The notes under the pieces: model-generated | What the model was told of the DNA's origin: nothing | Seen by the model: the letters and a program-made list of their open reading frames with translations, nothing else | Database searches by the model: none | Program-made: the position numbers and the translations under genes | In this document: piece after piece, positions 4,561-49,609 of the stretch | Position numbering within the stretch: position 1 is the first letter of the stretch | Layout of the letters: every line of letters starts with the position of its first letter | Source: Craspedostauros australis | Lineage: Eukaryota; Bacillariophyta; Bacillariophyceae; Mastogloiales; Achnanthaceae | Direction of reading: 5' to 3' | DNA length: 64,000 bases | Assembly (NCBI GenBank): GCA_026770025.1 | Contig: JAMXDE010000033.1 | Location: 186,001-250,000 of the forward strand

Positions 4561-6531
4561 TTAGTTGACCGTCAACGTGAAAGACCCGCTGCGCGAACCA
4601 AACGCATTGACCACGATGTAATAGGCCCGATCCTTGACGGAGATCCACGTCGCCGTGGAGGATTCGCCATCGCAGAGGGGATCGTTGTCGTTGCTGACGA
4701 TGCATTGCAAGTTGTCGCAGGCATTGTTGGGATCGTTGCCATCGACGCTGAGCACGGCGAGCTGCGTATCGAACGTGGTGCCGTCGTTGCAGGTCGATGC
4801 CGTCATGCTCTGTCCCGTGCCGAGCACGCGATGCCATTTCTGCGGCAGATCGGCACGCAGCTCGTTGTCGCCGCAATCCAGCGTGACGCCTTGCTGGGCG
4901 CCGACGAAGCGCGTGAGTATGCCGGACGTCGAGTCGCCGGGAGAAAGCTCGACGCTGTCGCTGCATCTGGCGTTGGTGTTGGCGTCGTCCCAATCGGCGC
5001 GCGATTGCAAGGTCATCTGGAAGGTTCCCACGAATGAGGAATCGCCGCCTTCGACGTCGTCGGCAATGACCCTGTGAATGAGAATGTGGTATATCTGACC
5101 TTGTTCGGAATCGAAGCGCACCAACTCCCCGCGCTCGCCATCGCAACCACAGGCGCCACGCTGCTGCTCCTGGATGCAGTTGAGATCGGGACAATCCCCG
5201 CCTTCGAAGACGGAGATGAGAGCGTCGTAATCCGTGCGGACGCTGCAGGTGGAGATTGTGACGGGCTCCCCCGTGCCTTCCCATTCGTACCACATGCCGC
5301 GCTCGTTGGTGAATGGCGAACCGCGGTCGCAGCTCCTGCCGATCTGCTGCTGCGCGTCGCCTTCGGAAACGCCAAAGGTGGAACCGAACACGGTGGAGGA
5401 CGTCTGATCGAGGACGACGGAGCCGGAGCATTCGTCGTGCGACGTCGTTGTCGGTTCCACCGTCAAGGAGAAGGTGCCGCGGGCATCGCGGTATCCGTGC
5501 ACGAAGATGTGATACTCGACGGTCTGCGTGGCGAACCAGGATGTTTTTGATTGATCCCCGCAGCTCGGTGCGTTGTCGTTTGCCACGACGCAGTCCAGGG
5601 CGTTGCAGGAACCAGCAAAGACCGAGATCTGCGTGTCCAGATCCTCTCCATCTCCGCGACACGTGGACGCCGTGTAGATCTTGTTGTCACCGATGAGGGT
5701 GAACCACTTGCCGAAGCCGTTCTCCAGCACGTCGCCGCACAACGGCACCGTGGAAGTGCCATCCAACAACAGCGAGGTCTCGGCCGTCGTGGAATCGATC
5801 ATGGCGAACGGGGAGCTGGACGGGATGAGCATGCCTTGCTCGCACTGGTTCTGCAGCGAGATCCCCTTGGGAACCACGGCCTCCTCCGCTCTGTTGCCGC
5901 TGCTGTTGCGACTGCGCATGCCAAAGATGACGGCCAGCGCGATGCTGAACATGAGCAGCATGGCGACGAAGAGGCCCAGCATGATGTTGCGGCGTCGCTT
6001 GGCCTCCTGATTGGCCTGGAACTGCTCCTTCTCTTGCGGCGTCATGTCGGTGTCGACCATCTCCGTGGACTGCACGCTGCTGTCGAGCTCCACCACGTTG
6101 CCTCGCTTCGTGATCATGCGCAGCTTGTCGTTGTTGGATTCGAAGGATTCGTCGGCTGCTTCCGTCTCGGTCTCCTCCTTGTCGTCGTCCACGTCCTTGT
6201 CCACGTCCTTGTCCACGAGGCTGTTGTTGGCCATGATGGCGCCTGGCTTGCCGCCATCCTGCGGTTCATGCCCACAAACGGCAGCCTCCACGGGCTCAAA
6301 GACGTTGTCCAGCATGTCCTTCTCATGAGCGGCGCCATTGGCACGAGTGGCATTGCGCTCATCGAGGGCCTCGGCTGACAGCTCGACGTTCTTGGAATCC
6401 GGCAGCGCAGATGCTGTGCGCACGGTCGGATAGAAGCAGTCGCAGAGGCTGCTGTTCACGGTGTCCACCTTGCTGCCGGCGTCGCTGGTCGACATTGTGG
6501 AGGTCTTCGTCGTTTCTTGGTTGGATTCCAT
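4561..6531 (-). CDS. Type II membrane protein with three PPC-like extracellular repeats
   Basis: A single exon of 656 residues from the Met at 6531. An acidic, disordered cytosolic head of about 180 residues is followed by one strong membrane segment (NIMLGLFVAMLLMFSIALAV). The outside part has three repeats of about 125-130 residues. Each starts around a Cys with a short Leu/Val stretch, then has a KWF/KWHR-like Trp motif, an A-S-T-C motif, a D-T-Q-[IL]-[SA]-V strand, an N-D-[ND] turn and a final G-[ST]-F-x-[LM]-T-[VL] strand. This pattern resembles the bacterial pre-peptidase C-terminal (PPC) beta-sandwich. Diatoms carry many such surface proteins, whose ligand or role is not known. A longer frame begins at 6576, but those 15 extra residues are only the translated 9-bp microsatellite, so the Met at 6531 is preferred. 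Confidence 0.82.
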   Translation of the reverse strand: MESNQETTKTSTMSTSDAGSKVDTVNSSLCDCFYPTVRTASALPDSKNVELSAEALDERNATRANGAAHEKDMLDNVFEPVEAAVCGHEPQDGGKPGAIMANNSLVDKDVDKDVDDDKEETETEAADESFESNNDKLRMITKRGNVVELDSSVQSTEMVDTDMTPQEKEQFQANQEAKRRRNIMLGLFVAMLLMFSIALAVIFGMRSRNSSGNRAEEAVVPKGISLQNQCEQGMLIPSSSPFAMIDSTTAETSLLLDGTSTVPLCGDVLENGFGKWFTLIGDNKIYTASTCRGDGEDLDTQISVFAGSCNALDCVVANDNAPSCGDQSKTSWFATQTVEYHIFVHGYRDARGTFSLTVEPTTTSHDECSGSVVLDQTSSTVFGSTFGVSEGDAQQQIGRSCDRGSPFTNERGMWYEWEGTGEPVTISTCSVRTDYDALISVFEGGDCPDLNCIQEQQRGACGCDGERGELVRFDSEQGQIYHILIHRVIADDVEGGDSSFVGTFQMTLQSRADWDDANTNARCSDSVELSPGDSTSGILTRFVGAQQGVTLDCGDNELRADLPQKWHRVLGTGQSMTASTCNDGTTFDTQLAVLSVDGNDPNNACDNLQCIVSNDNDPLCDGESSTATWISVKDRAYYIVVNAFGSRSGSFTLTVN

Positions 6532-6650
6532 CCTTGTCAACACCTTCAACACCTTCAACACCTTCAACACCTTCAATGCTTCAATGCTTCAACACCTTCA
6601 ATGATTCACACCTTCAATGATTCACACCTTCAATGCCTCAATGCTTCAAT
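6532..6650. repeat. CTTCAACAC / CTTCAATG tandem microsatellite
   Basis: Directly upstream of the PPC-like gene there are about four head-to-tail copies of a 9-bp unit (CTTCAACAC) that grade into degenerate CTTCAATGC and CTTCAATGATTCACAC units. The array sits in the presumed 5' UTR or promoter. Part of it can be read in frame with the gene as a Lys-Val-Leu repeat. Confidence 0.85.
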
Positions 6651-7796
6651 GCCTGATGCTGTTTGTGATCAGTCGATCAAATGGAACGCCGCCTGTTTCA
6701 GCGCTCTCCATTAATAATATTATGCTGCACAAGGATGGTTCTCGCACAGACAGCAGAGCGACGTGGAATAGTGGGGTATAGTGGCGCAGTGGTGGTGATC
6801 GCTGGAGTCTTGGTGGCAATGGAATGCAATGTCCAACGCGAAACGCTTCTCCTTGCCCGCGATACTCCGCTTCTCCGTTCCTCTATCTCACTTTGTGTCG
6901 TCGAGTAAGACCAGTCAATGCCATTGTTCTCATTCCTGACATCACCATCAATCACATCGAGGTGGCAACCGCCAGTTTTCTCCAAGAAATGACCAATTTC
7001 GTCATCTTGTCTTTCCGTTCGTCCCGAAATTTGTGTCTCATTGGAGGCATCTCGGCATCCTCAAGTCATGCCCAGAAACACACGATTGGGTCATTCACGA
7101 ATACTTGCTTCACACGTGATTCAATGGCTATGTCTCAACACAAAGCTAACTAAGTACTTCAACTCACTCCTGTTCTTTCAAATTCAAAGGTGAGCGAGCC
7201 GGCCGATGCGTCGCCGTTACAAACTGATGAGATTTGAAATGTGAAAACGAAAACGAACGAAACGACCACCACAACAACAGCCACAAACATCACATCTTTG
7301 TCCGTGGCGGAATTCATTCCGTGATCGCAAAAGAACAGCCGCGGCATTTGAACTCTCTTTGTGTTCAACATGTGCCAACGCAACACAATGCAAACGCAGT
7401 TGCGTCGGATCGTATCATGCCGTATCGGATTCGAACGATCTGCTACCGTTCCTCCTACTTAGCAACAATCACAACGGCGATTCCTCTTTCGGAATTGCAA
7501 TTGACCACACCGAAAGGCGCTGCCTCCATCCGCAAAGTTAACGCAGCAGATAATCGATTGCGTGTCGCCACATAACCCTCAACGATGGTGCAATTGGGAG
7601 GGAGACACTTGAATCACGACCTTGAATAGTCCGTTGCCTCCGCATTTCAAAACGAAAGGAGGAAGAAGGAAGGAAGGAGGTCATCTCTCTTTTCACTCTC
7701 ATCGCCATCATCGCTTCATTGTTTTCGGTTCCGCATCTCCGATACAACACCCTCCACACCACCTCCACAAGCGCACACCATAACTCGCTTTGCAGG
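6651..7796. other. Shared 5' region of two divergent genes
   Basis: About 1.1 kb between the minus-strand PPC-like gene and the plus-strand gene at 7797, so it should contain both promoters. Short frames are present but none has a recognisable domain or composition. A GGATTCGAAC string near 7428 looked like a tRNA T-arm but has no partner arms. Confidence 0.4.
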
Positions 7797-9431
7797 ATGC
7801 CCGGGCATACTCCACCCTCACCTCTGGCGGTTCCACACACCACCGACAATGGTGGTGCTGGCAACGATAGTGACACTGCTCCCGCCGCTGCATCGCCGCA
7901 CGCCAACTTCCTGCCTTCAAGTCCCATGAGCCAAAACCCACAGCTCCCCACGACGGCATCCGCCTTGACGGCCAAAGTCGTCAACACCGACACTGTGCAG
8001 ACCACCAGCAACAAGGCGCATCCCATGGCATCGCAGCCCTCCATCAACTTGAAAGCCACCGAGTCCACGGCCACGGCATCCGAATCTTCCGTCGACGGCC
8101 AGCGCCCTCACCAGCACGGCCCCATCATCGAGGAACGCGATTCGTTGGATTACTTCTTCGAGAACGCCGATTCCGACACATCACGCGAAGTCTCCGTGTC
8201 CACGACGCAGCCCTTGCATGCGAAAGATGCGGAGGACGAACGCGCATCGCCGATTCGACAGCTGATCAAGATCAGCGCGAACACGTCCTCGGACGAGCCA
8301 TCGCACGAGTTCCAGGACGCCACCACCATGCGCACCATGAAGAATCTGCTCGACGATAACTCCGCCACGGATGACAGCGACGCGGGTGCCGAAGGGGACG
8401 AGGGTGGCAAAGACGAGAACAATGAGGAGAAACAGCAGGGATCGATGGCACCAACGCCCGTCAATGCAATGCCAGCACGGCAGATGAGCCGAACGCCACC
8501 GCAGCAGCAGCAGCACAACACATCCTCCGAGCGTGTGATCGATGATGGCGTGGACACGGGAGCGTTGACACCGCAAGATCCAAGGGCGCGCGTGGCACCG
8601 ATGAGGCGATCAGGATCGATGAGCCATGGGTTGTCGGTCGCCACAGCCAACGACGAAGGACGCGACGTCCTGTCCTACATCGTGGATCGGGTGATGAAGA
8701 TGGGGGAGACGACTGACCTCGAGCAGGAGGCTCTCGATCAGGCCCTGAGGACCGCCGAGTCGCTCCCACACGACGGCTCCGACACGTCCTCCCCTCTCAA
8801 GCTTCAGAATGAGATCATCATGCCTGTGTCGGGATCGTACGATGAAGGATTCGAAGCCGTGGGACGCGGCACCTACCTCAACACATCCACGCTGGTGAAT
8901 CCAGCCTACGCCAACGAGGAGAAGAGAGACGAGGACGCGGATGATTCATCGGTCAACCGCCCTGCCTTCTTCATTCACAACCGCCTGCCGGATGTGAGTC
9001 CGCTTCCGTCGCCCGTCGTGTCGATGAGCTATCCACCGCAGAGCGATATTGAGGCACAGCTCACATCGCCGCAAAAGCGGCTGAAGCGCGCCAGAGACAA
9101 GATGCGCGAAATCGAACGCTACGTCTTCGACAAGGTGTCTCACTCGCCCACGGCGTCTGTTGCCGACAGGAGCCAGAGGTCATTCTCGGTCGCATCCACG
9201 CAGACTGGCATGTCGCTAGCGAACGGGAACACGCAGCCTGGGTCCATCAAGATAGTGAGCACTTCACCGGGCTCCATGCCGCAAGTGATGACGGCGGAGG
9301 AATTCATGAAGCGACAAAGGCAGAGCCGAAGACGGGATTTGGCACACAACGTGGGGATTGGGTTGCTGGTGGTTGCCGGTGTTTCCTTCGTTGGGGTGAT
9401 CATCTTCATGTGCTTCTACGTTTGGGCATGA
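7797..9431 (+). CDS. Disordered protein with C-terminal membrane anchor, unknown function
   Basis: I do not recognise this protein. From the Met at 7797 it has 544 residues. Most is Ser/Thr/Asp/Pro-rich and probably disordered. A more conserved-looking, partly helical patch lies around residues 275-330 (an SYIVDRVMKMG segment with acidic helices). The last 35 residues are a basic stretch followed by one hydrophobic segment (IGLLVVAGVSFVGVIIFMCF) that ends almost at the stop, which is the layout of a tail-anchored membrane protein facing the cytosol. The upstream Met at 7719 is possible but adds only a His/Thr-rich leader. Confidence 0.65.
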   Translation: MPGHTPPSPLAVPHTTDNGGAGNDSDTAPAAASPHANFLPSSPMSQNPQLPTTASALTAKVVNTDTVQTTSNKAHPMASQPSINLKATESTATASESSVDGQRPHQHGPIIEERDSLDYFFENADSDTSREVSVSTTQPLHAKDAEDERASPIRQLIKISANTSSDEPSHEFQDATTMRTMKNLLDDNSATDDSDAGAEGDEGGKDENNEEKQQGSMAPTPVNAMPARQMSRTPPQQQQHNTSSERVIDDGVDTGALTPQDPRARVAPMRRSGSMSHGLSVATANDEGRDVLSYIVDRVMKMGETTDLEQEALDQALRTAESLPHDGSDTSSPLKLQNEIIMPVSGSYDEGFEAVGRGTYLNTSTLVNPAYANEEKRDEDADDSSVNRPAFFIHNRLPDVSPLPSPVVSMSYPPQSDIEAQLTSPQKRLKRARDKMREIERYVFDKVSHSPTASVADRSQRSFSVASTQTGMSLANGNTQPGSIKIVSTSPGSMPQVMTAEEFMKRQRQSRRRDLAHNVGIGLLVVAGVSFVGVIIFMCFYVWA

Positions 9432-23927: not shown

Positions 23928-26900
23928 ATGTCTCTCCGATATCTTGCATCAACTTCCAACGGTGATCACCATGCCAACGGCACCATGGCCAAGCCAATGA
24001 CTGGCACGGAGGATCGGTTCAGCAGCACAACTGACACCGTCACCGTCACCAGCAGCGCCAACAGCAGCGACTCCAAGCCGAGCCTGTCTTCCTCCAGTCA
24101 ACGTGACCAGCGGGAGATGTCTTCGTTCGGATCGGAGCCGCAAGGGACCAGGACCTCCCAAGTCACCGCAAGCGTGACACTCGAATCTGACCGTCCATTC
24201 ATCACCACCAGGACCGACCACGTGAAAGCCATGTCCAAGATGGCAGAGCTGTCGCAGGACAAGCTCAACTTCTCTCGCTTGGGCTTGATCGGCAGGGACT
24301 GCGAGCAACGGGTGCTGCATCGTGCGTTTGGCCAAGTCATCAAGGCATTCCAACAATCAAGACACGCAGCTTCAGCCCGAGCGACTCTATCCAAGCCATG
24401 GGCCTCCGCATCTGACATGGGGCCCACTCCTGTGAGACACTCCGATGATCAATCTCTCGACGCACACGATGGAGACAACAACCCATTGACAACATCCGAA
24501 ATCAAGCCAGATGGCAAGGGCATCCGATCGTTCGTATCCATCTCCGGACTTTCGGGAACCGGCAAGTCCGCCCTGGCCGCCAGCCTGTGCTCCAAATGCA
24601 TCGCTCATCGTGCATTCTACGTCGTGGGGAAGTTCGATCTGAAGCAGATGGAGGAACCATTCTCCGGCTTCAAGACGGCCATGGTCAATCTCTGCTACCA
24701 GATCCAAAAACTGCCAAGGCGAAAGAACCAGCAGCCCAATGGACGCCCCAATACCACAGAGAGCAAGAGGTCATCGTTCGCCGATCAGGATCCGCGATGC
24801 TTCGAGGATCTTCGTGACCAGATCATCGACTGTCTCGATCACCAGGAGCTCCACATCCTCTCCAAGCTCATTCCCAACATCGTGGACGTCGTTGGAAGCG
24901 ATGCTCTGTTCGACAATGGAGCTGAGGACGAAGATGGCGATGCCAGCGAAAATGGTAATGCCGATGCCGATGGCGACAGTGATGGCGATCATCATGCCAC
25001 CCCCAAGCTCCAACACAAGCACAAGCTCCAACACAAGCACAAGCACCAAGACAAGCGACAGAAGCAACAGGATCAGACTGGTGGCTTCCGAGAGCAAGCC
25101 GATCGATTGAAGTTCGCATTCCGAAACTTCATCCGAGCGGTGTGCAGCTACTGCCCGTTGGTATGGGTGTCGGATGATGTACAGTGGGCTGACAAGGCAT
25201 CGCTTGACATGATGGAATCATGGATGCTGGACACCGACATCGCATCGCTCATGGTGGTGGCCTGCTACCGTTCCAACCTCGTGGAGCAAACCGAGACCAA
25301 CCTGTGCCAGCTCATGCTAAAGTCCATCGAGCGTGCCAAGCGCGAGCGAGGAATCCGAGTCGTCGGCATCGAAGTTGGCAACCTCCTCGTGGACTACGTC
25401 CATGCCATGCTTGTGGAGCTGCTGGGAGGCTGCGACACCCGACTGGACGAGAGCCAAGAGCTGGCAGAGATTGTGCACAGGAAGACGGACGGCAACGTCT
25501 TCTTCGTGCAGCAGTTCTTGCGACTCCTGGTGGATCAAGACTTGCTGAGCTACAACTTCGGCATCGGGCAGTGGAGATGGGATTGCATCGAGATCCAGAA
25601 GAGCACGCCAGCCACCATGAACGTGGTTGAGCTCATGAAGCTGAAGCTCCAACAGATCAGCAATGCCCGGTACGTGCTGCCGCTCGCAGCGTGCCTTGGG
25701 TCGACATTCTCGTGGTCGCTGCTGCGACACGTCATGAATGGATTCCGCAAGTCCAGCGATGACCAAGAGTTCTACAGGAGCGTGTTCGGAGGTCTACCAC
25801 CCAACGATGACTCCATGACGGTGCAAATCCTCCTCACCTGCCAAGATGAAGGGTTGATCGACGCCCATTCCGTGGAGCCAGACATGCTTGATATGCATGA
25901 TGACGGGCTCGCCACGGATGGATGTGCCACGGCCATGCCTATGCCCATCCCAACCGAATACTCCTTCATCCATGACAAGGTCCAAGAGTCGTCGATGGAC
26001 ATGATCCCCGATGACAAGCTGTCAGAGCTGCAGTTCCGTCTTGGCACCATCCTCGTGGACGAGCTATCGCCAAAGGAGCTGGACCAATCCATTTTCATCG
26101 TCGTGAATCTCCTGAATGTGAGATTGGATCTGGTCCCGCTCTACCCACCTCAGACCTCCATCGAGTCATGCCAACGGTTCCTCGTCGCCAAGCTCAACCA
26201 CTCCGCGGGATCCAAGGCCGTCTCTTCCGCGGCCTTCCGTTCTGCGTACAGATACTTCCAAGCTGCCATCGATCTACTGCCCGAAGGCCACTGGCAGGAC
26301 TACTACGAGATGAGCTTGGACCTTTACGCATCGGCCATGGAATGCGCATTCGTCACCTTTGATCATTCGAAGGTGCAGGAATACGGCCGCGCCATCACCA
26401 ACCTCGACTGCCCCATCCTCGACAAGATGCGAGCTTACCACGTCCTGATGGATGCCAACCTGGGCAGCTCCGACTTCGAGAAGACCAGTGACGCTACCAG
26501 GCTGGGTCGGGAGGTGCTGTCGCAGTTCGGGTGCAAGTTCCCCACGAGCAAGGTCGTGATGACGGCCAGCACTCTGTACGGTCTGATGAAGATGAAGGCC
26601 TCGGTCAAATCCTGGACGGCGCATGCGATAGATGCCCTGCCCGATGCTATCGATGCAGAGGAGACTGCGATCATGAAGGCGCTCGACAAGTTCACCACAT
26701 GTACATATGTAACAGAGCCCGGCTTGATGCCTCTGGTACTGATGAAGATGGTGGACAGGACGTTTGCCAACGGCGTGTCATGTTACTCGCCAGTGGCTTT
26801 TGCCCTCTTGGGCCTAATCTTTGGATATTCCTTGGGCGATACAGAACGTGGACGAATCTGCGTCCAACGAGCACTGGACATGCTGCACCAGATGAAGGAT

Positions 26901-27905
26901 CGGACTTCGGAAAGCCGCGTCATCATGGTATGTCATTCATTCGTCTTGCACTTCACACAACCTCTCGAATCCCTCAAGAAACCTCTGTTGAAGGCCTACA
27001 GTGTCGGCATGGCCACTGGCGATGTGGACTCAGCACTGTGGTGCATGTTCTTCTACCTGGATATCTGTTGGTATACAGGAAGGTCGCTGAAGACGCTGGA
27101 CGTCGATTACTCCACATACACGAAGCTTTCCATTGATTTTGGACAGCTGAAGCACGCCGAATCTTCATCCGTTCCGTGGCAAGCCATCATGAATCTGAGA
27201 GGCACATCGGGAGAGCGCGTCTTACTGAAGGGTGATGCCTTCGATGAACCGGTCAAGATGAGAGAGTACACTGAGACCAACGACAAAGTCATGAAATCCA
27301 ACTTCTGGCGATTCAAAACAGTCAACGCCGTGTACTATTCCGATTTCGAAACGGCGGCCGATATTGCGGTCATAGGAATGGAGTACCATCACACCAATGC
27401 ACCAGGACAGATTGGATGCATACCATTCACATTCGCCTGTTCCATTTCTTGCTACATTGCTGCTGCGACACTCAAGCACAAAGGCCGGCGTGCTATCTCA
27501 CAGTACAAGCGCATGGCCAAGAAGGCGAGGAAGCTACTGGAAAGCTGGACCAATCGAGGGAATCCGAACTGCGCTCACTTTCTCAACATGATCGATGCCG
27601 AGCGCGCGATCGGGAAGCGCCGCCGCCTGAAGCCCGGCGAAGCACACCCGACGGTGGTCAACTATCAACGAGCAATTCGATTGACCGCTCGTCGTGGTTT
27701 GATGAACATGCGGGCATTCTCCAATGAACGTCTCGCCGAATTCTACTTGATGCATACGGCAGATAAGGAGAGCGCCAAGTTTCATTATGACGAAGCGAAG
27801 CGTCTGTATGGAGAATGGGGAGCCGATGGGAAGGTAGATGCAATGGAGGAACGGGCTGGCCAGTTGTGGCCACCTCCGACAGAGATCCAGATGGTCATGG
27901 AGTGA
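23928..27905 (+). CDS. STAND-type AAA ATPase, upstream tandem copy
   Basis: A single exon of 1325 residues. After a Ser/Thr-rich head comes the segment SRLGLIGRDCEQRVLHRAF, the usual lead-in to an AAA_16 module. The P-loop GLSGTGKSAL lies near residue 207, Walker B LVWVSDDVQWADKAS near 410, then an ACYR sensor-like motif. An acidic run and a KLQHKHKLQHKHKHQDK repeat are inserted between them (about residues 325-385). SFIHDKVQESSMDMIP (near residue 680) matches the HDRVQ-x-A-Y-x-x-IP motif of ATPase modules in bacterial PknK and hybrid histidine kinases. The rest is helical and TPR-like, probably the sensor. No kinase, cyclase or receiver domain follows. The likely role is an ATP-driven signalling switch with an unknown ligand. 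The ATG used by the paralog is GTG here (23889), so the Met at 23928 is the likely start. Confidence 0.88.
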   Translation: MSLRYLASTSNGDHHANGTMAKPMTGTEDRFSSTTDTVTVTSSANSSDSKPSLSSSSQRDQREMSSFGSEPQGTRTSQVTASVTLESDRPFITTRTDHVKAMSKMAELSQDKLNFSRLGLIGRDCEQRVLHRAFGQVIKAFQQSRHAASARATLSKPWASASDMGPTPVRHSDDQSLDAHDGDNNPLTTSEIKPDGKGIRSFVSISGLSGTGKSALAASLCSKCIAHRAFYVVGKFDLKQMEEPFSGFKTAMVNLCYQIQKLPRRKNQQPNGRPNTTESKRSSFADQDPRCFEDLRDQIIDCLDHQELHILSKLIPNIVDVVGSDALFDNGAEDEDGDASENGNADADGDSDGDHHATPKLQHKHKLQHKHKHQDKRQKQQDQTGGFREQADRLKFAFRNFIRAVCSYCPLVWVSDDVQWADKASLDMMESWMLDTDIASLMVVACYRSNLVEQTETNLCQLMLKSIERAKRERGIRVVGIEVGNLLVDYVHAMLVELLGGCDTRLDESQELAEIVHRKTDGNVFFVQQFLRLLVDQDLLSYNFGIGQWRWDCIEIQKSTPATMNVVELMKLKLQQISNARYVLPLAACLGSTFSWSLLRHVMNGFRKSSDDQEFYRSVFGGLPPNDDSMTVQILLTCQDEGLIDAHSVEPDMLDMHDDGLATDGCATAMPMPIPTEYSFIHDKVQESSMDMIPDDKLSELQFRLGTILVDELSPKELDQSIFIVVNLLNVRLDLVPLYPPQTSIESCQRFLVAKLNHSAGSKAVSSAAFRSAYRYFQAAIDLLPEGHWQDYYEMSLDLYASAMECAFVTFDHSKVQEYGRAITNLDCPILDKMRAYHVLMDANLGSSDFEKTSDATRLGREVLSQFGCKFPTSKVVMTASTLYGLMKMKASVKSWTAHAIDALPDAIDAEETAIMKALDKFTTCTYVTEPGLMPLVLMKMVDRTFANGVSCYSPVAFALLGLIFGYSLGDTERGRICVQRALDMLHQMKDRTSESRVIMVCHSFVLHFTQPLESLKKPLLKAYSVGMATGDVDSALWCMFFYLDICWYTGRSLKTLDVDYSTYTKLSIDFGQLKHAESSSVPWQAIMNLRGTSGERVLLKGDAFDEPVKMREYTETNDKVMKSNFWRFKTVNAVYYSDFETAADIAVIGMEYHHTNAPGQIGCIPFTFACSISCYIAAATLKHKGRRAISQYKRMAKKARKLLESWTNRGNPNCAHFLNMIDAERAIGKRRRLKPGEAHPTVVNYQRAIRLTARRGLMNMRAFSNERLAEFYLMHTADKESAKFHYDEAKRLYGEWGADGKVDAMEERAGQLWPPPTEIQMVME
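25011..25064 (+). repeat. CTCCAACACAAGCACAAG coding repeat
   Basis: Two 18-bp units and a partial third encode a Lys/Leu/Gln/His tract between the Walker motifs of the upstream ATPase. The same repeat with the same copy number occurs in the downstream copy at 31036-31089, so it predates the duplication or was homogenised. Confidence 0.85.
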
Positions 27906-29808: not shown

Positions 29809-32800
29809 ATGCCGCCGATCGCTGGACATATCCCCTCTGACCCCAGTGTATCTGTCGGATCCATCACATCAATCTCTAGCGATGGCCACTACAATGGCAT
29901 GGGCATGGCACGAGTGGCGAGCACCGCAGAGAATCGTAACAGCGGCACCAATAGTCGCAGCAGCAGACGCAAATCCAAGCACAACACCCCTTCGTCGCGT
30001 CAATCGCGATTCGGGATGTCATTGGAATCAACCTTTCGGGATGACCATCATGATGGCAACGGTGGCAACAAGAAAGGCAGCATCCAGCGATCCAAGTCGA
30101 GGATGCCATCACAGCGGAACTTCCAATCTGGGTATGAAGGCTCATCCTCTTGTGGGTTGAAGCCGCAAGGGACCAGGATCTCCCAAGTCACCGCAAGCGT
30201 GACACTCGAATCTGACCGTCCATTCATCACCACCAGGAGCGACCACGTGAAAGCCATGTCCAAGATGGCAGAGCTGTCGCAGGACAAGCTCAACTTCTCT
30301 CGCTTGGGCTTGATCGGCAGGGACCGCGAGCAACGGGTGCTGCATCGTGCGTTTGGCCAAGTCATCAAGGCATTCCAACAATCAAGACACGCAACTTCAG
30401 CCCGAGCGACTCTATCCAAGCCATGGGCCTCCGCATCTGACATGGGGCCCACTCCTGCGGGAAACTCCGATGATCAATCTCTCGACGCACACGGTGGAGA
30501 CAACAATCCATTGACAACACCCGAAATCAAGCCAGATGGCAAGGGCATCCGATCGTTCGTATCCATCTCCGGACTTTCGGGAACCGGCAAGTCCGCCCTG
30601 GCCGCCAGCCTGTGCTCCAAATGCATCGCTCATCGTGCATTCTACGTCGTGGGGAAGTTCGATCTGAAGCAGATGGAGGAACCATTCTCCGGCTTCAAGA
30701 CGGCCATGGTCAATCTCTGCTACCAGATCCAAAGACTGCCAAGGCGAAAGAACCAGCAGCCCAATGGGCGTCCCAATACCACGGAGAGCAAGAGGTCATC
30801 GTTCGCCGATCAGGATCCGCGATGCTTCGAGGATCTTCGTGACCAGATCATCGACTGTCTCGATCACCAGGAGCTCCAGATCCTCTCCAAGCTCATTCCC
30901 AACATCGTGGACGTCGTTGGAAGCGATGCTCTGTTCGCCAATGGAGCTGAGGACGAAGATGGCGATGCCAGCGAAAATGGCAATGCCGATGCCGATGGCG
31001 ACAGTGATGGCGATCATCATGCCACCCCCAAGCTCCAACACAAGCACAAGCTCCAACACAAGCACAAGCACCAAGACAAGCGACAGAAGCAACAGGATCA
31101 GACTGGTGGCTTCCGAGAGCAAGCCGATCGATTGAAGTTCGCATTCCGAAACTTCATCCGAGCGGTGTGCAGCTACTGCCCGTTGGTATGGGTGTCGGAT
31201 GATGTACAGTGGGCTGACAAGGCATCGCTTGACATGATGGAATCATGGATGCTGGACACCGACATCGCATCGCTCATGGTGGTGGCCTGCTACCGTTCCA
31301 ACCTCGTGGAGCAAACCGAGACCAACCTGTGCCAGCTCATGCTAAAGTCCATCGAGCGTGCCAAGCGCGAGCGAGGAATCCGAGTCGTCGGCATCGAAGT
31401 TGGCAACCTCCTCGTGGACTACGTCCATGCCATGCTTGTGGAGCTGCTGGGAGGCTGCGACACCCGACTGGACGAGAGCCAAGAGCTGGCAGAGATTGTG
31501 CACAGGAAGACGGACGGCAACGTCTTCTTCGTGCAGCAGTTCTTGCGACTCCTGGTGGATCAAGACTTGCTGAGCTACAACTTCGGCATCGGACAGTGGA
31601 GATGGGACTGCATCGAGATCCAGAAGAGCACGCCAGCCACCATGAACGTGGTTGAGCTCATGAAGCTGAAGCTCCAACAGATCAGCAATGCCCGGTACGT
31701 GCTGCCACTCGCAGCGTGCCTCGGGTCGACATTCTCGTGGTCGCTGCTGCGACACGTCATGAATGGATTCCGCAAGTCCAGCGATGACCAAGAGTTCTAC
31801 AGGAGCGTGTTCGGAGGTCTACCACCCAACGATGACTCCATGACGGTGCAAATCCTCCTCACCTGCCAAGATGAAGGGCTGATCGACGCCCATTCCGTGG
31901 AGCCAGACATGCTTGATATGCATGATGACGGGCTCGCCACGGATGGATTTGTCACGACCACGGCCATACCCATCCCAACCGAATACTCCTTCATCCATGA
32001 CAAGGTCCAAGAGTCGTCGATGGACATGATCCCCGATGACAAGCTGTCAGAGCTGCAGTTCCGTCTTGGCACCATCCTCGTGGACGAGCTATCGCCAAAG
32101 GAGCTGGACCAATCCATTTTCATCGTCGTGAATCTCCTGAATGTGAGATTGGATCTGGTCCCGCTCTACCCACCTCAGACCTCCATCGAGTCATGCCAAC
32201 GGTTCCTCGTCGCCAAGCTCAACCACTCCGCGGGATCCAAGGCCGTCTCTTCCGCGGCCTTCCGTTCTGCGTACAGATACTTCCAAGCTGCCATCGATCT
32301 ACTGCCCGAAGGCCACTGGCAGAACTACTACGAGATGAGCTTGGACCTTTACGCATCGGCCATGGAATGCGCGTTCGTCACCTTTGATCATTCGAAGGTG
32401 CAGGAATACGGCCGCGCCATCACCAACCTCGACTGCCCCATCCTCGACAAGATGCGAGCCTACCACGTCCTGATGGATGCCAACCTGGGCAGCTCCGACT
32501 TCGAGCAGGCCAGCGACGCTACCAGGCTGGGTCGGGAGGTGCTGTCGCAGTTCGGGTGCAAGTTCCCAACTAGCAAGGTCGTGATGACGGCCAGCACTCT
32601 GTACGGTCTGATGAAGATGAAGGCCTCGGTCAAATCCTGGACGGCGCATGCGATAGATGCCCTGCCCGATGCTATCGATGCAGAGGAGACTGCGATCATG
32701 AAGGCGCTCGACAAGTTCACCACATGCACGTATTTGTCAGAACAGGAGCTAATGCCTCTGGTGCTGATGAAGATGGTGGACAGGACGTTTGCCAACGGCG

Positions 32801-33930
32801 TGTCATGTTACTCGCCGGCGGCTTTTGCCCTCTTGGGCCTAATCTTCGACGATGCTTTGGGTGATTCGGAGCGCGGACGAATCTGCGCACAACGAGCACT
32901 GGACATGCTGCACCAGATGAAGGATCGGGCTTCGGAAAGCCGCGTCATCATGATCTGCCATACATTCGTCCTGCACTTCACACAGCCCTACGAAAACCTC
33001 AGGGAGCCTCTGTTGAAGGCCTACAGCGTCGGAATGGCCACTGGCGATGTGGACTCAGCACTGTGGTGCATATACTCCTACCTGGACATGTGCTGGTACA
33101 CGGGAAGATCGCTGAAGACGCTGGACGTCGACTACTCCACATACACTGCCATGGCCGCTGACTACGGGCAGATGCGTCACTCTGAATCCTTGGCCATCGT
33201 GTGGCAGGTGATCATGAACCTGAGAGGCACATCGAACGAGCGCGTCTTACTGATAGGCGATGCCTTCAACGAGACTATTCAGATGAACCGGTACGTGGAG
33301 ACCAACAATCATCTCATGCAAGTGCATCTCAGGCGATTCAAGTCATACACTGCCATGTACTTCCGCGACTTCGAGATGGCGGCCGACATCGCCGTCACTG
33401 GAATGGAGTACCATCACGACAATACACCAGGACAGCTTGGACGCGTACCATTCACATTCACCTGTTCCATTTCTTGCTACATTGCTGCTGCGACACTCAA
33501 GCACAAAGGCCGGCGTGCTATCTCACAGTACAAGCGCATGGCCAAGAAGGCGAGGAAGCTACTGGAAAGCTGGACCAATCGAGGGAATCCGAACTGCGCT
33601 CACTTTCTCAACATGATCGATGCCGAGCGCGCGATCGGGAAGCGCCGCCGCCTGAAGCCCGGCGAAGCACACCCGACGGTGGTCAACTATCAACGAGCAA
33701 TTCGATTGACCGCTCGTCGTGGTTTGATGAACATGCGGGCATTCTCCAATGAGCGTCTGGCCGAATTCTACTTGATGCATACGACAGATCAGGAGAGCGC
33801 CAAGTTTCATTATGACGAGGCGAAGCGTCTGTATGGAGAATGGGGAGCCGATGGGAAGGTAGATGCAATGGAGGAACGGGCTGGCCAGTTGTGGCCACCT
33901 CCGACAGAGATCCAGACGATCATGGTGTGA
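29809..33930 (+). CDS. STAND-type AAA ATPase, downstream tandem copy
   Basis: A single exon of 1373 residues, the paralog of the gene at 23928. The domain order is the same: AAA_16 lead-in SRLGLIGRDREQRVLHRAF, P-loop GLSGTGKSAL near residue 255, Walker B near 458, the His/Lys-rich insert, the SFIHDKVQESSMDMIP motif, and a long TPR-like helical end. From the PQGTR motif (about residue 118) to about residue 966 the two proteins are almost identical. About 240 residues (roughly 967-1205) then differ strongly, and the last 165 are again almost identical. The N-terminal 117 residues are also diverged and longer here. The start ATG is in good context directly after a CACT repeat. It is probably a signalling ATPase whose diverged helical block changes ligand or partner choice; that is inference. 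Confidence 0.88.
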   Translation: MPPIAGHIPSDPSVSVGSITSISSDGHYNGMGMARVASTAENRNSGTNSRSSRRKSKHNTPSSRQSRFGMSLESTFRDDHHDGNGGNKKGSIQRSKSRMPSQRNFQSGYEGSSSCGLKPQGTRISQVTASVTLESDRPFITTRSDHVKAMSKMAELSQDKLNFSRLGLIGRDREQRVLHRAFGQVIKAFQQSRHATSARATLSKPWASASDMGPTPAGNSDDQSLDAHGGDNNPLTTPEIKPDGKGIRSFVSISGLSGTGKSALAASLCSKCIAHRAFYVVGKFDLKQMEEPFSGFKTAMVNLCYQIQRLPRRKNQQPNGRPNTTESKRSSFADQDPRCFEDLRDQIIDCLDHQELQILSKLIPNIVDVVGSDALFANGAEDEDGDASENGNADADGDSDGDHHATPKLQHKHKLQHKHKHQDKRQKQQDQTGGFREQADRLKFAFRNFIRAVCSYCPLVWVSDDVQWADKASLDMMESWMLDTDIASLMVVACYRSNLVEQTETNLCQLMLKSIERAKRERGIRVVGIEVGNLLVDYVHAMLVELLGGCDTRLDESQELAEIVHRKTDGNVFFVQQFLRLLVDQDLLSYNFGIGQWRWDCIEIQKSTPATMNVVELMKLKLQQISNARYVLPLAACLGSTFSWSLLRHVMNGFRKSSDDQEFYRSVFGGLPPNDDSMTVQILLTCQDEGLIDAHSVEPDMLDMHDDGLATDGFVTTTAIPIPTEYSFIHDKVQESSMDMIPDDKLSELQFRLGTILVDELSPKELDQSIFIVVNLLNVRLDLVPLYPPQTSIESCQRFLVAKLNHSAGSKAVSSAAFRSAYRYFQAAIDLLPEGHWQNYYEMSLDLYASAMECAFVTFDHSKVQEYGRAITNLDCPILDKMRAYHVLMDANLGSSDFEQASDATRLGREVLSQFGCKFPTSKVVMTASTLYGLMKMKASVKSWTAHAIDALPDAIDAEETAIMKALDKFTTCTYLSEQELMPLVLMKMVDRTFANGVSCYSPAAFALLGLIFDDALGDSERGRICAQRALDMLHQMKDRASESRVIMICHTFVLHFTQPYENLREPLLKAYSVGMATGDVDSALWCIYSYLDMCWYTGRSLKTLDVDYSTYTAMAADYGQMRHSESLAIVWQVIMNLRGTSNERVLLIGDAFNETIQMNRYVETNNHLMQVHLRRFKSYTAMYFRDFEMAADIAVTGMEYHHDNTPGQLGRVPFTFTCSISCYIAAATLKHKGRRAISQYKRMAKKARKLLESWTNRGNPNCAHFLNMIDAERAIGKRRRLKPGEAHPTVVNYQRAIRLTARRGLMNMRAFSNERLAEFYLMHTTDQESAKFHYDEAKRLYGEWGADGKVDAMEERAGQLWPPPTEIQTIMV

Positions 33931-42247: not shown

Positions 42248-43666
42248 CTACTGGGCAACCACGTTCGCGTGCTTGTCCGTACGCATACTGGTGGTCGTAG
42301 CCACAGTCATTGTTTGGCCGAAAACCGCGTGCGGGTGGACAAAGTGCGTACTCCGGAATGGCTGCGATGAAGACAGTGGCGTCGGCTTCGGACTGCTGAT
42401 AGATAGCGCCGGCTTCGGATCGCTGTTGCCGTCCTTCGTTTCCTTGGCGCCGTTGCCGTTGCTGTTGCCTTCACAATTCTTGCCACCGCCGCCGTTGAAC
42501 ATGGATTGGAAGGAAGTCTTCACATGATCGATGGCATCATCCAGCATGTGGAGTGCGCGCAGCGTCTTCGTGAGCACGCGCTCCTTCTTGACGCGCTGGG
42601 CTTCGGTGGTGACTCGCTTGATCTCCTGCTTCGTGCAATGGTCGTGGCTGGAGTATCGCAGCATAACCTTGCGGTCGTAGGGGCTGAGAAGCAGCTGGTG
42701 TGGCTTGCGCCTTCGTCTTGGCGCGGAGACGGGCATGCCTTGCAACTGGCCTGGTAGGTACATCGAAGGCCTGGTGGATCCGCTGAGGCTGTCCACGCTC
42801 CTCGTCGTACTGGTGTGGTCGTCGCAATCACTGCCGTCGACGATGAGGCCTTCGTAGTCCTCGACAGAGACGACGGTCGATGCGTCGCGATCGTACTCCC
42901 AGGAGAGCTGCACTGGAGGACCTGCCGAGCAGCTTGGATGGTCCGAGACATCGGCCTTGTACTGTCGGATTTCCAGATTGCCGAAGCTCACGTTGCGCTT
43001 GAAGGAGGAGGAAGAACGGTCGCTGCTGCAGAGGCTGGACAGTGACTTCTTCATGGAGGACTTGCGGACCAACGGGGGGAAGTAGACGGAGTCGTCGTCG
43101 CCATTGTCATCGGCACTGCCGACCATGTTGTTGTCGCCGTCGTTGCTGACTTTGTCTGCATGTCCGTCCTTGGCATCCTCTTGGTGATCCTTGGTGTCGC
43201 CGTCTTCAATCGATGGTGGATGGCTGGAATGACGCTTACAGTCGCTATCATCGACAGCATCGCGATCACCATCTGTGGCTGGGAAGTGCTGGTCGAATGT
43301 CGGACAGGTCTTGCTCGTGAGCAGCGATGGTTCCGTGCTTGCAGCTACTTGTGGTCTTCGTGGAAAGTAGATGAAGCTCGAAAAGTCCATGTCGCATTCG
43401 GCGTTGTCGCTGCTGCTGCTGCGTTCTTGATCATCGTCACTTTCGCCGTCGTCGATCATGAACTCGTATGAAGATTCGTCGGATTCGACAGACGCGGAAG
43501 TGTTGCTGTCTTTCTGCGTGATGGAGTGATTGGCGTTTGCTTCGGTTTGCGAGTGTTGCCGTGGTCGTGACTGTTTCGGTGTGTTGCTCAAAAAGGTATC
43601 TTTGGTGATGATGGAGTCGAGCGAATCGATGGATGACGAAGCGCTCAATGAAGTCGAGGCGGTCAT
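42248..43666 (-). CDS. RNVSFGNLEIR-type stramenopile protein, C-terminal part
   Basis: A frame of 472 residues from the Met at 43666. An acidic Ser-rich region of about 220 residues is followed by KRNVSFGNLEIRQY, SDHPSCSAGPPVQLSWEY and SVEDYEG, then a basic helical stretch (RRRRKPHQLLLSPYDRKVML ... SHDHCTKQEIKRVTTEAQR). The VSFG-x-LEIR-x-Y / SDHP-x-C-S-x-GPPV-x-L-x-W core followed by a YDR-x-x-ML segment is a pattern I recall from many hypothetical diatom proteins; its function is not known. The frame is open upstream of 43666 as far as 43750, where it meets the inverted-repeat element, and it is in the same frame as the piece at 44852-45301. It may therefore be the 3' part of one longer gene and not a complete gene. 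Confidence 0.75.
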   Translation of the reverse strand: MTASTSLSASSSIDSLDSIITKDTFLSNTPKQSRPRQHSQTEANANHSITQKDSNTSASVESDESSYEFMIDDGESDDDQERSSSSDNAECDMDFSSFIYFPRRPQVAASTEPSLLTSKTCPTFDQHFPATDGDRDAVDDSDCKRHSSHPPSIEDGDTKDHQEDAKDGHADKVSNDGDNNMVGSADDNGDDDSVYFPPLVRKSSMKKSLSSLCSSDRSSSSFKRNVSFGNLEIRQYKADVSDHPSCSAGPPVQLSWEYDRDASTVVSVEDYEGLIVDGSDCDDHTSTTRSVDSLSGSTRPSMYLPGQLQGMPVSAPRRRRKPHQLLLSPYDRKVMLRYSSHDHCTKQEIKRVTTEAQRVKKERVLTKTLRALHMLDDAIDHVKTSFQSMFNGGGGKNCEGNSNGNGAKETKDGNSDPKPALSISSPKPTPLSSSQPFRSTHFVHPHAVFGQTMTVATTTSMRTDKHANVVAQ

Positions 43667-43751
43667 GTTGGCTTCGGAATGATGGGACTGCTTGAGTCGT
43701 GTACTGAGACAGAAATCAGGGAATTCTCTGGATGACGAGACGAAAAGTGAA

Positions 43752-43775
43752 TAGGGGGATATCGCATTTCACATT
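43752..43775 (+). repeat. Left terminal inverted repeat of the 1.1 kb element
   Basis: TA followed by G-GGGATATCGCATTTCACATT. It matches the inverse of the right copy at 23 of 24 bases. Confidence 0.85.
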
Positions 43776-44149
43776 GCGAGTCCCACGGTACAAAATAACC
43801 TGATAATGACATTTTTAGAGGGGCAACATGCGAACTTCCCCCTCGGAAAGTGAAACTCGATTGCGTTTTAGGAGCCAAAAACACAATTGAGTTTCACATT
43901 GCAGTCCCGGCAATCCAACCTTCCACGTGTTGGAACGAAACCAATGGCCAATCATTTCTCTTCATTTGCAGCAATGTTGAGTCGTCCTTGTCGTGCTGAT
44001 GATAGTTTTTTGAGATGCTAATGATGATGAAACTAGCATTACGAATAAGGGGTGCATGGAGCGATAGAGAGTGATTGCGATGTCGAATATGCCTGTAAGC
44101 TTCACATATGATATCTGCGCACAAGTCACAAACACCCTCTTCATGATAC

Positions 44150-44652
44150 AGCTGAGAAATCTTTGCTCATATCCTATTTCACCCGATACAACATCCGCGG
44201 CGTGTTCCTGATGCTCTGAGGACTAGTGTAGTCAGATACGACCAGGGACTTCTACCAACGCACATTTTGCATCCTTTGGAGATCCTGACTGCCATATTGG
44301 AAGTCGTCGGTGGTCTCCAACCAACCCAACGTGCAATCGCAATAGTTCTGTGTAGACTGCGTGAAGAGTTTCTATTGGACAACAAACTGCTGATCCATCT
44401 CCATGATACGGTGATCAAGAGGTCTCTGCCATCGATATTGGCAACAGGGCCTTGAACAAGCCATACTTATCAGGAACAAAGTGCTTGGGCATCTGTTACC
44501 GAACCTCTGTTAATGGCAAAGTTGAGACAGAAGAGATGGCAACGAAACTCTCACACCAGGAAGTTCCTAAGAGGAGAAAGAGGGATTTGCGTTGCGTAAA
44601 ACTCAGAGCACACCCATTAACGATCCTACCATCCTTTGGTCTCAACAAGTGA
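44150..44652 (+). pseudogene. Unassigned open stretches inside the 1.1 kb element
   Basis: A plus-strand frame without an ATG (about 100 residues, ending at 44455) contains segments such as HILHPLEILTAILEVVGGL and LCRLREEFLLDNKLLIHL that look like folded helices. A second frame follows at 44452-44652. Neither matches a family I know. They could be remains of a gene carried by the element, or chance. Confidence 0.3.
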
Positions 44653-44830
44653 TGCGATAACCTGCAACGAAGCATTCAGATCATACCATTCTAAACTCGA
44701 ACTCTATTCTACAGAAGAGAAGCCGATTCAGTCATGTTGGTCGTCTTTCTGTGTAGGTCACGAACGAGTCACGAGTACCAATGTGAAATCCGAACGTGAG
44801 TGCCACATGTGACATGAATGGAGGGGTGTG

Positions 44831-44854
44831 AATGTGAAATGCGATATCCCTCTA
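44831..44854 (-). repeat. Right terminal inverted repeat of the 1.1 kb element
   Basis: The inverse of the left copy, with TA at its outer edge. Read on the minus strand, that TA plus the first G of the repeat makes the TAG stop codon of the adjoining host frame. Confidence 0.85.
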
Positions 44855-45301
44855 ATGACACGATGGTGTTGGTGATCCGTTGGTCGTTGCAGATGTTGTT
44901 GCAGATGCGGTCGTGCTTGACGATGAGAAGGAAGAAACAGAATTCTGAAGGTGGCAGCAACTTGACCCGTCGGAGGTGATGGAGGAGTGATCGTTGGCAT
45001 CGTTGTTTTCGTCGTCGTCGTCGTCGTTGGTGGGGAAATGAAGGAGGAAGTCGCCTGATGCGTACGGCATGTCATCGATGTTGCAATCGCTGAGGATGCT
45101 CTCGTCATGTTCCTCATCTTGCGCTTGTGTTTGTGTTTGTTCCTCATTCTCATGGCTGTTGCGCTCTGCCGGTTTTGTGGGTACGGTGTGCTGGGGTTCG
45201 CGCGCTGCTTGCACATCGGCTGCGTCGTTGGTTGCTGTTGCGTCGTGTGCCATCTCATGGAGCGCCATCGTCAGCTGCTCGCCGAGGAAGAAGCTGTCCA
45301 T
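44852..45301 (-). CDS. Acidic protein fragment ending at the inverted-repeat element
   Basis: A frame of 149 residues from the Met at 45301 (MDSFFLGEQLTMALHEM...). It is acidic and rich in Asp, Asn, Ser and Thr, with a conserved-looking middle (ILSDCNIDDMPYASGDFLLHF). Its TAG stop is formed by the TA flank plus the first base of the terminal repeat of the element at 43752-44854. On the other side of the element the frame continues in phase, without a stop, into the protein starting at 43666. I read this as the N-terminal part of the same host protein. An in-frame Met at 45382 is also possible; the upstream exon structure is unresolved. Confidence 0.55.
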   Translation of the reverse strand: MDSFFLGEQLTMALHEMAHDATATNDAADVQAAREPQHTVPTKPAERNSHENEEQTQTQAQDEEHDESILSDCNIDDMPYASGDFLLHFPTNDDDDDENNDANDHSSITSDGSSCCHLQNSVSSFSSSSTTASATTSATTNGSPTPSCH

Positions 45302-45571
45302 CTCTACCTGGAAGCGTTGGTTGATGTGCGTGGACTGATCGTGCGATGCACGAGGTTTGCGTTGCGTTGGAGAACAGAACATGGTCGAGAATTGTCTTCG
45401 GAAGTTGTTGTCGTCGTTGTCGTTGTGGTTGTCGTCGTTGTTGTGAGGCAGTTGTGTGTAATGGTGCCTGGTGCAGGTATGGTGCTTCGTTTTCTTCTTT
45501 GCTTCGCTCTGTTGCTGTTGTTGTTGATGTTGTGTCGGTGTGACGAAGACAAGCGGTCGAGATGTGGTGAG

Positions 45572-47833: not shown

Positions 47834-49609
47834 ATGTCCGTCGATTTGGGAAACTGCAAGGCCGCGAGCCTGGACTTCATCGTGAGAGAAGATGACACCG
47901 AGATGCTCGCCGTCGAGGATGACATCCGCATGGACCTGGAGCGAATCGGCATCAAGGTCAACGGCATGTTCCTGGACGATGACAAGTACCGCGATGCCGA
48001 ACTCGAGGGCAACTACAACGTCCTGTTCACCCGCTCGTGGGGTGCCCCGTACGATCCGCATTCCTACATGAACTCCTGGGCCACACCGTCCCACGTGGAG
48101 TACTCCGCCATCAACAACCTGCAGGACCCGCTCACTCGTGACGATCTCCTGAAGAAGATCGCGGACGTCCAGACGCTCCTCGATCCACAGGCCATCGAGA
48201 AGAAGTGGCACGAGATCCTTGACGACGTTCACAAGCAGGCCATCTTCATGCCGCTGTGGGGCACCCGCGTCCCGTACGTCCTCAACCGACGTCTCATCGG
48301 CTTCACCGTGGGTGAGCAGTCCTGGTCCTTCCCCTTCCACACGGTGCAGGTCGCCAGCGGATCCAGGAACGTGACCCTGAGTCCGGGACTCGGGGGCATG
48401 TTCGACAACGTTGGACCGCTGCATCCGCATCTCTACTCTCCCAACCAGCTCTACGCCCAGGACTGGATCTACGAGGGCCTCGTGAGCTACGGTCAGGATG
48501 GTGAGATCGTCCCAGCCCTTGCCGAGTCCTGGAAGACCGAGCAGATCGCAACGGGCCAACGCATGACCTTCGTCCTGCGCAAGGGCGTCAAGTTCCACGA
48601 CGGAACCGACTTCAACTGCGCCGCCGCCAAGCTCAACTTCGACCACGTTCTTTCCGACACCGTGCGTCAGCGCCACCAGTGGTTCGGAGCCGGCAAGCAC
48701 CTCAAGTCCTGGATCTGCGACAGCGACGACAACTTCGTCCTCGAGACCACCACGGCCTTCTACCCGCTCCTCCAGGAGCTCACCTACATCCGCCCTCTCC
48801 GCTTCGCCTCCCCAGCCGCCTTCTCTCAAGGAATCGACTCCGACGCCGACCTCCACAACTCCTGCGCACCAGGCATGTTCGGTTCCGGCTGGGAGGAGCT
48901 CGAGAAGAATATCACGTGCGCCGGACTCAGCGAGCCCATCGGAACCGGACCCTTCAAGTACGTCTCGCGCGTGACGAACGACGAGGGCACGGACAAGGAG
49001 GTCATCTTCGAGCGCCATGCCGACTACTGGGGACAGCAGCCAGGCTTCGATCAGCTCAAGATCGTTCACTACGTCGATAACAACGCCGTCGAGGCGGCCC
49101 TCATGTCCGGTGAGCTCGACATGGCCCTCGGTCTCGGACCCCTCAACCCCAAGCAGGTGCAGGACCTCAAGTTCTTCCACAGCGACAAGTTCGACGTGCG
49201 CCACAGCGCGGTCCTGCGTCATGCGCTGCTCGTCTTCAACACCAACAAGGCCCCAACTGACGACATCCAGGTGCGACGTGCCATCATCCACGCCATCGAC
49301 AAGGCCCAGTTCCTCGAGGAGGAGTTCGCCGGATTGGAGCAGCCCGTCACGCAGCTTCTGCCGCTGTCGGCCCCGTACTGCAACGTCGATCTCAGCCCCA
49401 AGTGGGGTTACGACATCGACAAGGCCCAGCTCATCAACTGTCCCGCCGACAACAGCGACGACTCTCTTTCGGGCGGCATCATTGCCGTGATCGTCATCGC
49501 CGGTGTGGCCGTCCTGGGCCTCGCCCTTCTCGTCTTCAACATGATCTCTCGCGAGCGCAGCGGCAAGCCCATGTTTGCCCCACCAGACAAGGAGGCCGTC
49601 CAAGCCTAG
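47834..49609 (+). CDS. Permuted or 5'-truncated family 5 solute-binding protein with TM anchor
   Basis: A single exon of 591 residues resembling SBP_bac_5 (nickel/oligopeptide-binding, NikA/OppA-like) proteins. The halves are in an unusual order. Residues 1-190 look like the C-terminal part of such a protein (REDDTEMLAVEDDIRMDLER, RSWGAPYDPHSY, VHKQAIFMPLWGTRVPYV). Residues 190-540 look like the N-terminal part (WIYEGLVSYGQDGEIVPALA, TFVLRKGVKFHDGTDFNC, GTGPFKYVSR, FERHADYWGQQPG, RRAIIHAIDKAQFL, YDIDKAQ). A membrane segment (about 547-571) and 20 cytosolic residues follow. No signal peptide is present. Codon use is strikingly biased to C-ending codons (ATC, CTC, GTC, AAG), unlike the neighbours, which suits high expression or foreign origin. 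It may bind Ni2+ or peptides at a membrane. It could also be the 3' part of a gene with tandem binding domains whose 5' exons are missing. Confidence 0.82.
   Translation: MSVDLGNCKAASLDFIVREDDTEMLAVEDDIRMDLERIGIKVNGMFLDDDKYRDAELEGNYNVLFTRSWGAPYDPHSYMNSWATPSHVEYSAINNLQDPLTRDDLLKKIADVQTLLDPQAIEKKWHEILDDVHKQAIFMPLWGTRVPYVLNRRLIGFTVGEQSWSFPFHTVQVASGSRNVTLSPGLGGMFDNVGPLHPHLYSPNQLYAQDWIYEGLVSYGQDGEIVPALAESWKTEQIATGQRMTFVLRKGVKFHDGTDFNCAAAKLNFDHVLSDTVRQRHQWFGAGKHLKSWICDSDDNFVLETTTAFYPLLQELTYIRPLRFASPAAFSQGIDSDADLHNSCAPGMFGSGWEELEKNITCAGLSEPIGTGPFKYVSRVTNDEGTDKEVIFERHADYWGQQPGFDQLKIVHYVDNNAVEAALMSGELDMALGLGPLNPKQVQDLKFFHSDKFDVRHSAVLRHALLVFNTNKAPTDDIQVRRAIIHAIDKAQFLEEEFAGLEQPVTQLLPLSAPYCNVDLSPKWGYDIDKAQLINCPADNSDDSLSGGIIAVIVIAGVAVLGLALLVFNMISRERSGKPMFAPPDKEAVQA

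Follow-up and report, generated by a model that had tools for sequence, protein, structure and literature searches.

On the minus strand of the window, the stretch of 64,000 nucleotides of Craspedostauros australis DNA that was analysed, two open reading frames lie on the two sides of a 1.1-kb segment with inverted ends. This raises the question of whether the two frames are parts of one gene that was broken by a mobile element. A sequence-only reading had proposed one host gene split at a TA target site. The split was supported by the element family, the joined frame and the coding bias, whereas the TA target was not upheld and the statistics were weaker than had been claimed. We consider it probable that a single minus-strand gene, about 676 codons long, received a Pangu-type non-autonomous transposon at an AAT site within a coding exon. 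The element had the following parts.

43753..44853, no strand assigned: non-autonomous DNA transposon, Pangu-like, 1101 bp, with an ANT duplication and ends AG...CT
43753..43775, plus strand: terminal inverted repeat of 23 bp, the end adjoining the bridge and the second gene part
44831..44853, minus strand: terminal inverted repeat of 23 bp, which meets the first gene part and matches the other end at 22 of 23 positions
43847..43900, no strand assigned: internal hairpin within the element, with 26-nt arms that are 85% complementary

The genome analysed comprised 74.8 Mb in 90 contigs. With up to 3 mismatches allowed, the end sequence occurred in the window at these two places only (0 expected from 100 shuffles), and genome-wide it gave 125 hits compared with 0 for the reversed control. 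If most of these hits are paired, about 60 copies of the element are implied. A search of the genome with the 1101-bp element itself displayed at least 42 near-full-length matches at 92-100% identity, a lower bound because 40 of the 116 first-look candidates were scored. Judging from both counts, the 1.1-kb family is mobile, which supports the earlier reading. The end forms were AGGGGG and AGAGGG in the window copy and AGAGGCC in many other copies. No significant Pfam match was found in any of the seven ORFs of at least 50 aa that lie wholly inside the element (best E 0.05). The window element is without a transposase, and therefore only mobilisation in trans can be claimed for it. The number of viral contigs carrying the end sequence was 0.

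The target duplication was worked out from the copies before any comparison with the published Pangu description. Thirty copies were fetched and three were dropped for odd ends; among the 27 scorable copies, identical 3-bp flanks were present on both sides in 21, and the left flank was ANT in 26. These copies show a target-site duplication of 3 bp, ANT, which is AAT at the window copy.

43750..43752, no strand assigned: left copy of the target duplication, AAT, from the flank comparison of copies
44854..44856, no strand assigned: right copy of the target duplication, AAT, from the same comparison

In the window copy the inverted ends are each flanked by TA. TA appears to be duplicated because the target starts with A and ends with T and the element likewise begins with A and ends with T. 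A TA duplication was ruled out, since the match continues into the bases beyond TA and thereby sets the register to ANT. A 2-bp TA duplication is the trait of Tc1/mariner elements, and TA does adjoin the inverted ends in most copies of the window family; however, the left TA consists of the T of ANT and the first base, A, of the element.

According to the parts of one survey used here, PHIS groups are told apart by their duplications: ANT in Pangu, and TWA and AT in PIF/Harbinger and ISL2EU (PMC4482050). The same parts give Pangu inverted ends of 11-40 bp starting with AG or GG, and report hosts that include one heterokont (PMC4482050). The window element shares with Pangu the 3-bp ANT duplication, 23-bp inverted ends starting with AG and a eukaryotic host. 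However, autonomous Pangu members have a PHIS DDE transposase, which the 1.1-kb window element lacks. PIF/Harbinger and ISL2EU belong to the same superfamily as Pangu, and DDE_Tnp_4 matches are abundant in this genome; strict PIF/Harbinger has a TWA duplication, whereas ANT was found here. By its ends and duplication, the element appears to fit the Pangu group of the PHIS (PIF/Harbinger-related) superfamily, and it encodes no recognisable transposase.

The interrupted gene had the following features.

44855..45382, minus strand: first part of the interrupted gene, an open frame of 176 codons from ATG 45382
44852..44854, minus strand: TAG stop at the junction, made of the T of the AAT duplication and the AG of the element end
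43667..43752, minus strand: bridge from the junction to ATG 43666, 28 codons, in phase and stop-free, with an ambiguous coding score
42248..43666, minus strand: second part of the interrupted gene, an open frame of 472 codons, its ATG with A at -3
42851..43045, minus strand: conserved stretch, second-part codons 208-272, VSFG..xIRxYxxxxxDHPSCSxGPPVxLxWEY

Removal of 43753-44856 (1104 bp = 3 x 368) gives the pre-insertion allele, with one frame of 676 codons and 28 bridge codons that are open and in phase. The joined frame is 676 aa long from ATG 45382 and 649 aa long from the internal Met at 45301; a length of about 650 residues had been expected, which agrees with the count from Met 45301, the boundary used in that reading. 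The earlier join, in which the element and one TA were removed, was likewise open and in phase over 29 codons to ATG 43666. That join corresponds to an allele with both copies of the 3-bp duplication and has one extra Tyr compared with the pre-insertion allele. Both parts had been described as acidic and Ser-rich, and they are, with Ser at 13.6% and 16.1% and D+E at 17.6% and 15.0% in the first and second parts, respectively. K+R amounted to 4.0% in the first part and 11.2% in the second.

The junction stop is built from one target base and two element bases, not from TA and one repeat base as first described. Whichever end of the window copy an ORF enters in that phase, the first codon read is TAG. 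The exact position of the stop at the repeat had been counted as extra evidence; it is not independent evidence, because it is automatic in one of three phases. The phase and openness of the bridge were also less telling than the earlier estimate of roughly one in ten. Stretches of 28 codons were stop-free in 3029 of 5710 non-coding-frame windows and 17186 of 37938 intergenic windows, so that the chance of phase and openness together is 1/3 x 0.45-0.53 = 0.15-0.18.

Better evidence for one gene is the coding bias on both sides in one shared frame. The codon-bias model was trained on 20 ORFs of the window, 11923 codons in all. Codons 1-140 of the first part, a boundary picked after inspection of the score profile, outscored all 4585 non-coding-frame windows, 375 of which were stop-free. 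Scores as high as that of the whole 176-codon part were reached by 6 of 4250 non-coding-frame windows (6 of 205 when stop-free windows alone are counted) and, in intergenic sequence, by 26 of 2182 windows. Compared with 3985 non-coding-frame windows, each 200 codons long, the second part had the higher score in 3983 cases, and 2 of 140 stop-free non-coding-frame windows scored above it.

It is very improbable that only the second part is a gene, with a spurious first frame and an element that merely lies upstream. The intergenic and stop-free windows that equalled the whole first part speak for this, as does the genome search with the first part, in which every other place stayed above E 0.01 (next best 0.022); however, none of the non-coding-frame windows reached the score of codons 1-140. 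It is improbable that the element lies between two independent adjacent genes. The A at -3 of ATG 43666 would suit a start of its own, phase and openness by chance are not rare, and the search with the first part gave no homologue that could reveal a fused protein. Yet the coding character of the first part is clear as far as codon 140, and two genes are hard to keep because, with the element removed, the first frame runs into the second without meeting a stop.

For the identity of the host gene, neither half gave a Pfam match above the cut-off; the first half came closest to BUD22, at no better than E 0.023, and for the second half there was no match at E<=0.1. A PDB search with the second half gave no match at E<=1. 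Elsewhere in the genome, 24 places matched the second part at E<=0.01; the majority cover parts of a stretch some 65 residues long, and four of the matching places were taken into the alignment of the conserved stretch. We take its motif to be one that occurs in many diatom proteins. No near-identical second place, as a paralogous empty site, was present in the assembly for either gene half.

The coding score was not even along the first part. Codons 141-176 scored low, with only 8 of 1130 coding windows lower, and GC3 in 30-codon windows was 0.73-0.80 at starts 90-110 compared with 0.33-0.43 at starts 140-170. This stretch before the junction is a Ser/Thr/Ala repeat sequence, and such repeats may explain the low codon score. 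A different explanation, which we regard as unlikely, is that the element sits in a pre-existing intron, with exon 1 ending near codon 139 and exon 2 starting in the bridge; the element would then leave with the intron and the gene would work normally. The fall of coding bias and GC3 over about codons 140-180, their recovery afterwards and the openness of both gene parts are consistent with such an intron. Furthermore, the bridge has a good-looking acceptor, CTGATTTCTGTCTCAG/T, with a branch-like sequence and a pyrimidine-rich CAG in phase 2, and GTCAAG at 44966 is a weak donor that is also in phase 2.

Against the intron, the donor is non-consensus: GTCAA gave an intron-like place in 0 of 256 cases, though GTCAAG gave one in 1 of 32 in another scan. 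The joined stretch has no in-frame stop anywhere along its length, a property that an intron does not require. In addition, Ser/Thr/Ala repeats can lower codon scores in real proteins, and by synonymous codon use alone the 36 codons still reached the 10th percentile of coding windows. Donor sites were scored with assumed weights. No GTRAG donor was present in the first part before the stop; the best donor-like site was CAG/GTAGAG at 45307 in the whole part and CGG/GTCAAG at 44966 in its last 40 codons. In a smaller intron scan, GTRAG[TG] donors were suggested by 4 of 64 cases, whereas two scrambled patterns gave 0 of 146 and 0 of 54. In a larger scan, GTNNN was at 0.71 of the base rate, without enrichment, and GTGAG had 2 of 263 cases behind it. 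GTRAG[TG] was dropped as a donor model, since the larger scan had no GTNNN enrichment and the scans were too noisy.

The positions of the other copies were compared with that of the window copy. When the empty sites of 29 copies were joined, the spanning frame exceeded 200 codons in three, two of which scored as non-coding, and only the window site looks coding. The remaining 26 sites had spanning frames of at most 187 codons, and one of the 26 was scored. The median spanning frame was 182 codons at random positions in the 1.5-kb flanks of the copies compared with 497 codons at random positions of the window, which is gene-dense and may not stand for the genome. Coding sequence seems to be avoided by most copies of the 1.1-kb family, which is what one expects of a mutagenic transposon and differs from introners as they are described in parts of PMC9860276.

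It is extremely improbable that the element is itself a new intron, an introner, spliced through sites that it brought or made. The likeness lies in the inverted ends and the short duplication: in the parts of PMC9860276 used here, introner families with such ends and duplications are reported from several algae and other eukaryotes, and some take both splice sites from the neighbouring exon sequence. However, any donor carried by the element would lie behind the in-frame TAG of the junction, too late to be of use, and the AAT duplication supplies neither GT nor AG, so that the borders carry no splice sites. Introners sit in genes, whereas only the window site among the 29 joined sites has a coding-looking frame of more than 200 codons. 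The median family lengths given there are 30-654 nt (PMC9860276), compared with 1101 bp here.

Under the preferred reading, insertion into a coding exon, a PHIS element would have been mobilised in trans by a DDE transposase and inserted at the ANT site AAT, probably within an exon, with AAT being duplicated. The reading frame is closed at the junction, 176 codons in, by the final T of the target together with the initial AG of the element. The interrupted allele would most likely yield an N-terminal fragment. If there is a downstream start, at an element-borne promoter or at the internal ATG 43666, it would give a second protein that lacks the first 204 residues and keeps the conserved stretch. 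We infer loss of function and any second transcript from this arrangement. A recent disruptive insertion of the ordinary gene-breaking kind is the most likely case.

Among 31 aligned copies, the window copy had 13 private substitutions over its 1101 bp and 1 private gap column; six of the 13 substitutions lie within 18 bp and may be one event. Both gene parts are still open, though the copy carries these changes. For a gene that has evolved neutrally after the insertion, and with an assumed 1 indel per 13 substitutions, 1.3-2.5 disruptions are expected, and 0 were seen (P 0.27-0.09). The intact parts are compatible with a recent null allele and also with weak remaining constraint. Age as a proof of constraint was dropped, since a P of 0.09-0.27 is not decisive and rests on the assumed indel rate.

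A reversible, frame-neutral off-switch, in which a resident PHIS transposase could toggle the gene, or two proteins made from the locus, is decidedly improbable. If it were true, precise excision would restore the gene and a footprint of the duplication only would add a single Tyr, with the frame kept both ways, while the built-in stop of T and AG would switch the gene off in this phase.

The genome was also searched for a possible mover, and at least 150 DDE_Tnp_4 matches were present (150 of 227 candidates scored). At one locus, C19:824004-829067, two oppositely oriented related ends (AGAGGATTGTCGCATTCA) lie 5.06 kb apart, enclose a DDE_Tnp_4 match and have AAT on both outer sides; 13 of their first 16 bases equal the AGAGG form. 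Single related ends lie 1.6 kb from a DDE_Tnp_4 match on C27 and 3.3 kb from one on C31. The C27 end agrees at 15 of 16 bases with the AGAGGCC form of other copies and at 14 of 16 with the AGAGGGA end of the window copy. A single end near DDE_Tnp_4 can be chance because DDE_Tnp_4 matches are so many. One relaxed end pattern gave 6 hits compared with 2 in the reversed control, and a second gave 236 compared with 0; the relatives are those among the matches listed. The three loci are leads to possible movers and not proof, and the same-end and relaxed-end searches of the genome did not find the exact mover of the window element.

The same-end matches listed, from the 125 and 2 of a further search, were 1.1-kb copies, three nested long copies (L070, L071 and L072), a copy enlarged to 1.3 kb by additional sequence (L073) and several isolated ends, among them L045, which is a shortened copy. 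The three long copies were ruled out as the autonomous form, being 1.1-kb copies with other transposons nested inside. The transposon in L070 (about 1482-8117) has inverted ends of about 30 bp and an ORF of 1220 aa with no Pfam match at E<=0.1. The one in L071 (about 1537-7602) has DDE_Tnp_4, its own ends GGAGTTGTCGGAAAA and a likely 3-bp CCG duplication, and its 595-aa ORF gave no Pfam match. L072 holds a nested element with 785-bp direct repeats, 99.7% alike, which from its ORF we presume to be copia-like.

Further families with AGAGG ends and ANT flanks had the ends AGAGGACTTTCGC. Some of these ends form opposite pairs about 7.3 kb apart, e.g., C1:1996970-2004264 and C29:460354-467621, and no DDE_Tnp_4 match fell in these families among the 150 scored. 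Some copies directly abut another copy or a lone end of 12-13 bp, with one ANT triplet between them (L033, about 2592-2620; L022, about 1487-1515; L074, about 1567-1571). Such an arrangement suggests that the duplication was a target of insertion more than once, or that remnants of excision are present.

These results document a Pangu-type non-autonomous family in a diatom with one likely gene-breaking copy. The diatom family is useful to transposon specialists because the parts of the survey used here report one heterokont Pangu host (PMC4482050); for other readers it is an ordinary case. The ANT target and the AG end together write TAG at the border, which gives truncation at the junction in one of three phases. 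Among the papers listed in a literature search, none dealt with insertions of this type into the coding sequence of diatoms, which is not proof of absence.

Elsewhere in the genome, the Silic_transp family, which marks diatoms and a few other silicifiers, gave 88 matches of up to 831 bits, a very large silicon-transporter family. The matches were on C2, C9, C11, C24, C37, C61 and others; 32 of the 88 cover at least 480 of 513 positions, and 28 of these 32 are without an internal stop. One of 14 control genomes gave a match, below the cut-off. In 37 Thalassiosirales genomes, 1-6 silicon transporters per species, typically 3-5 in most, are given in the parts of PMC10700740 used here. Elsewhere in the window, the gene at 47834-49606 has a bacterial extracellular solute-binding family 5 domain (SBP_bac_5, E 2.6e-55), for which a transfer from bacteria is possible. 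Finally, two adjacent long genes on the same strand, at 23928-27902 and 29809-33927, have AAA_16 ATPase domains.
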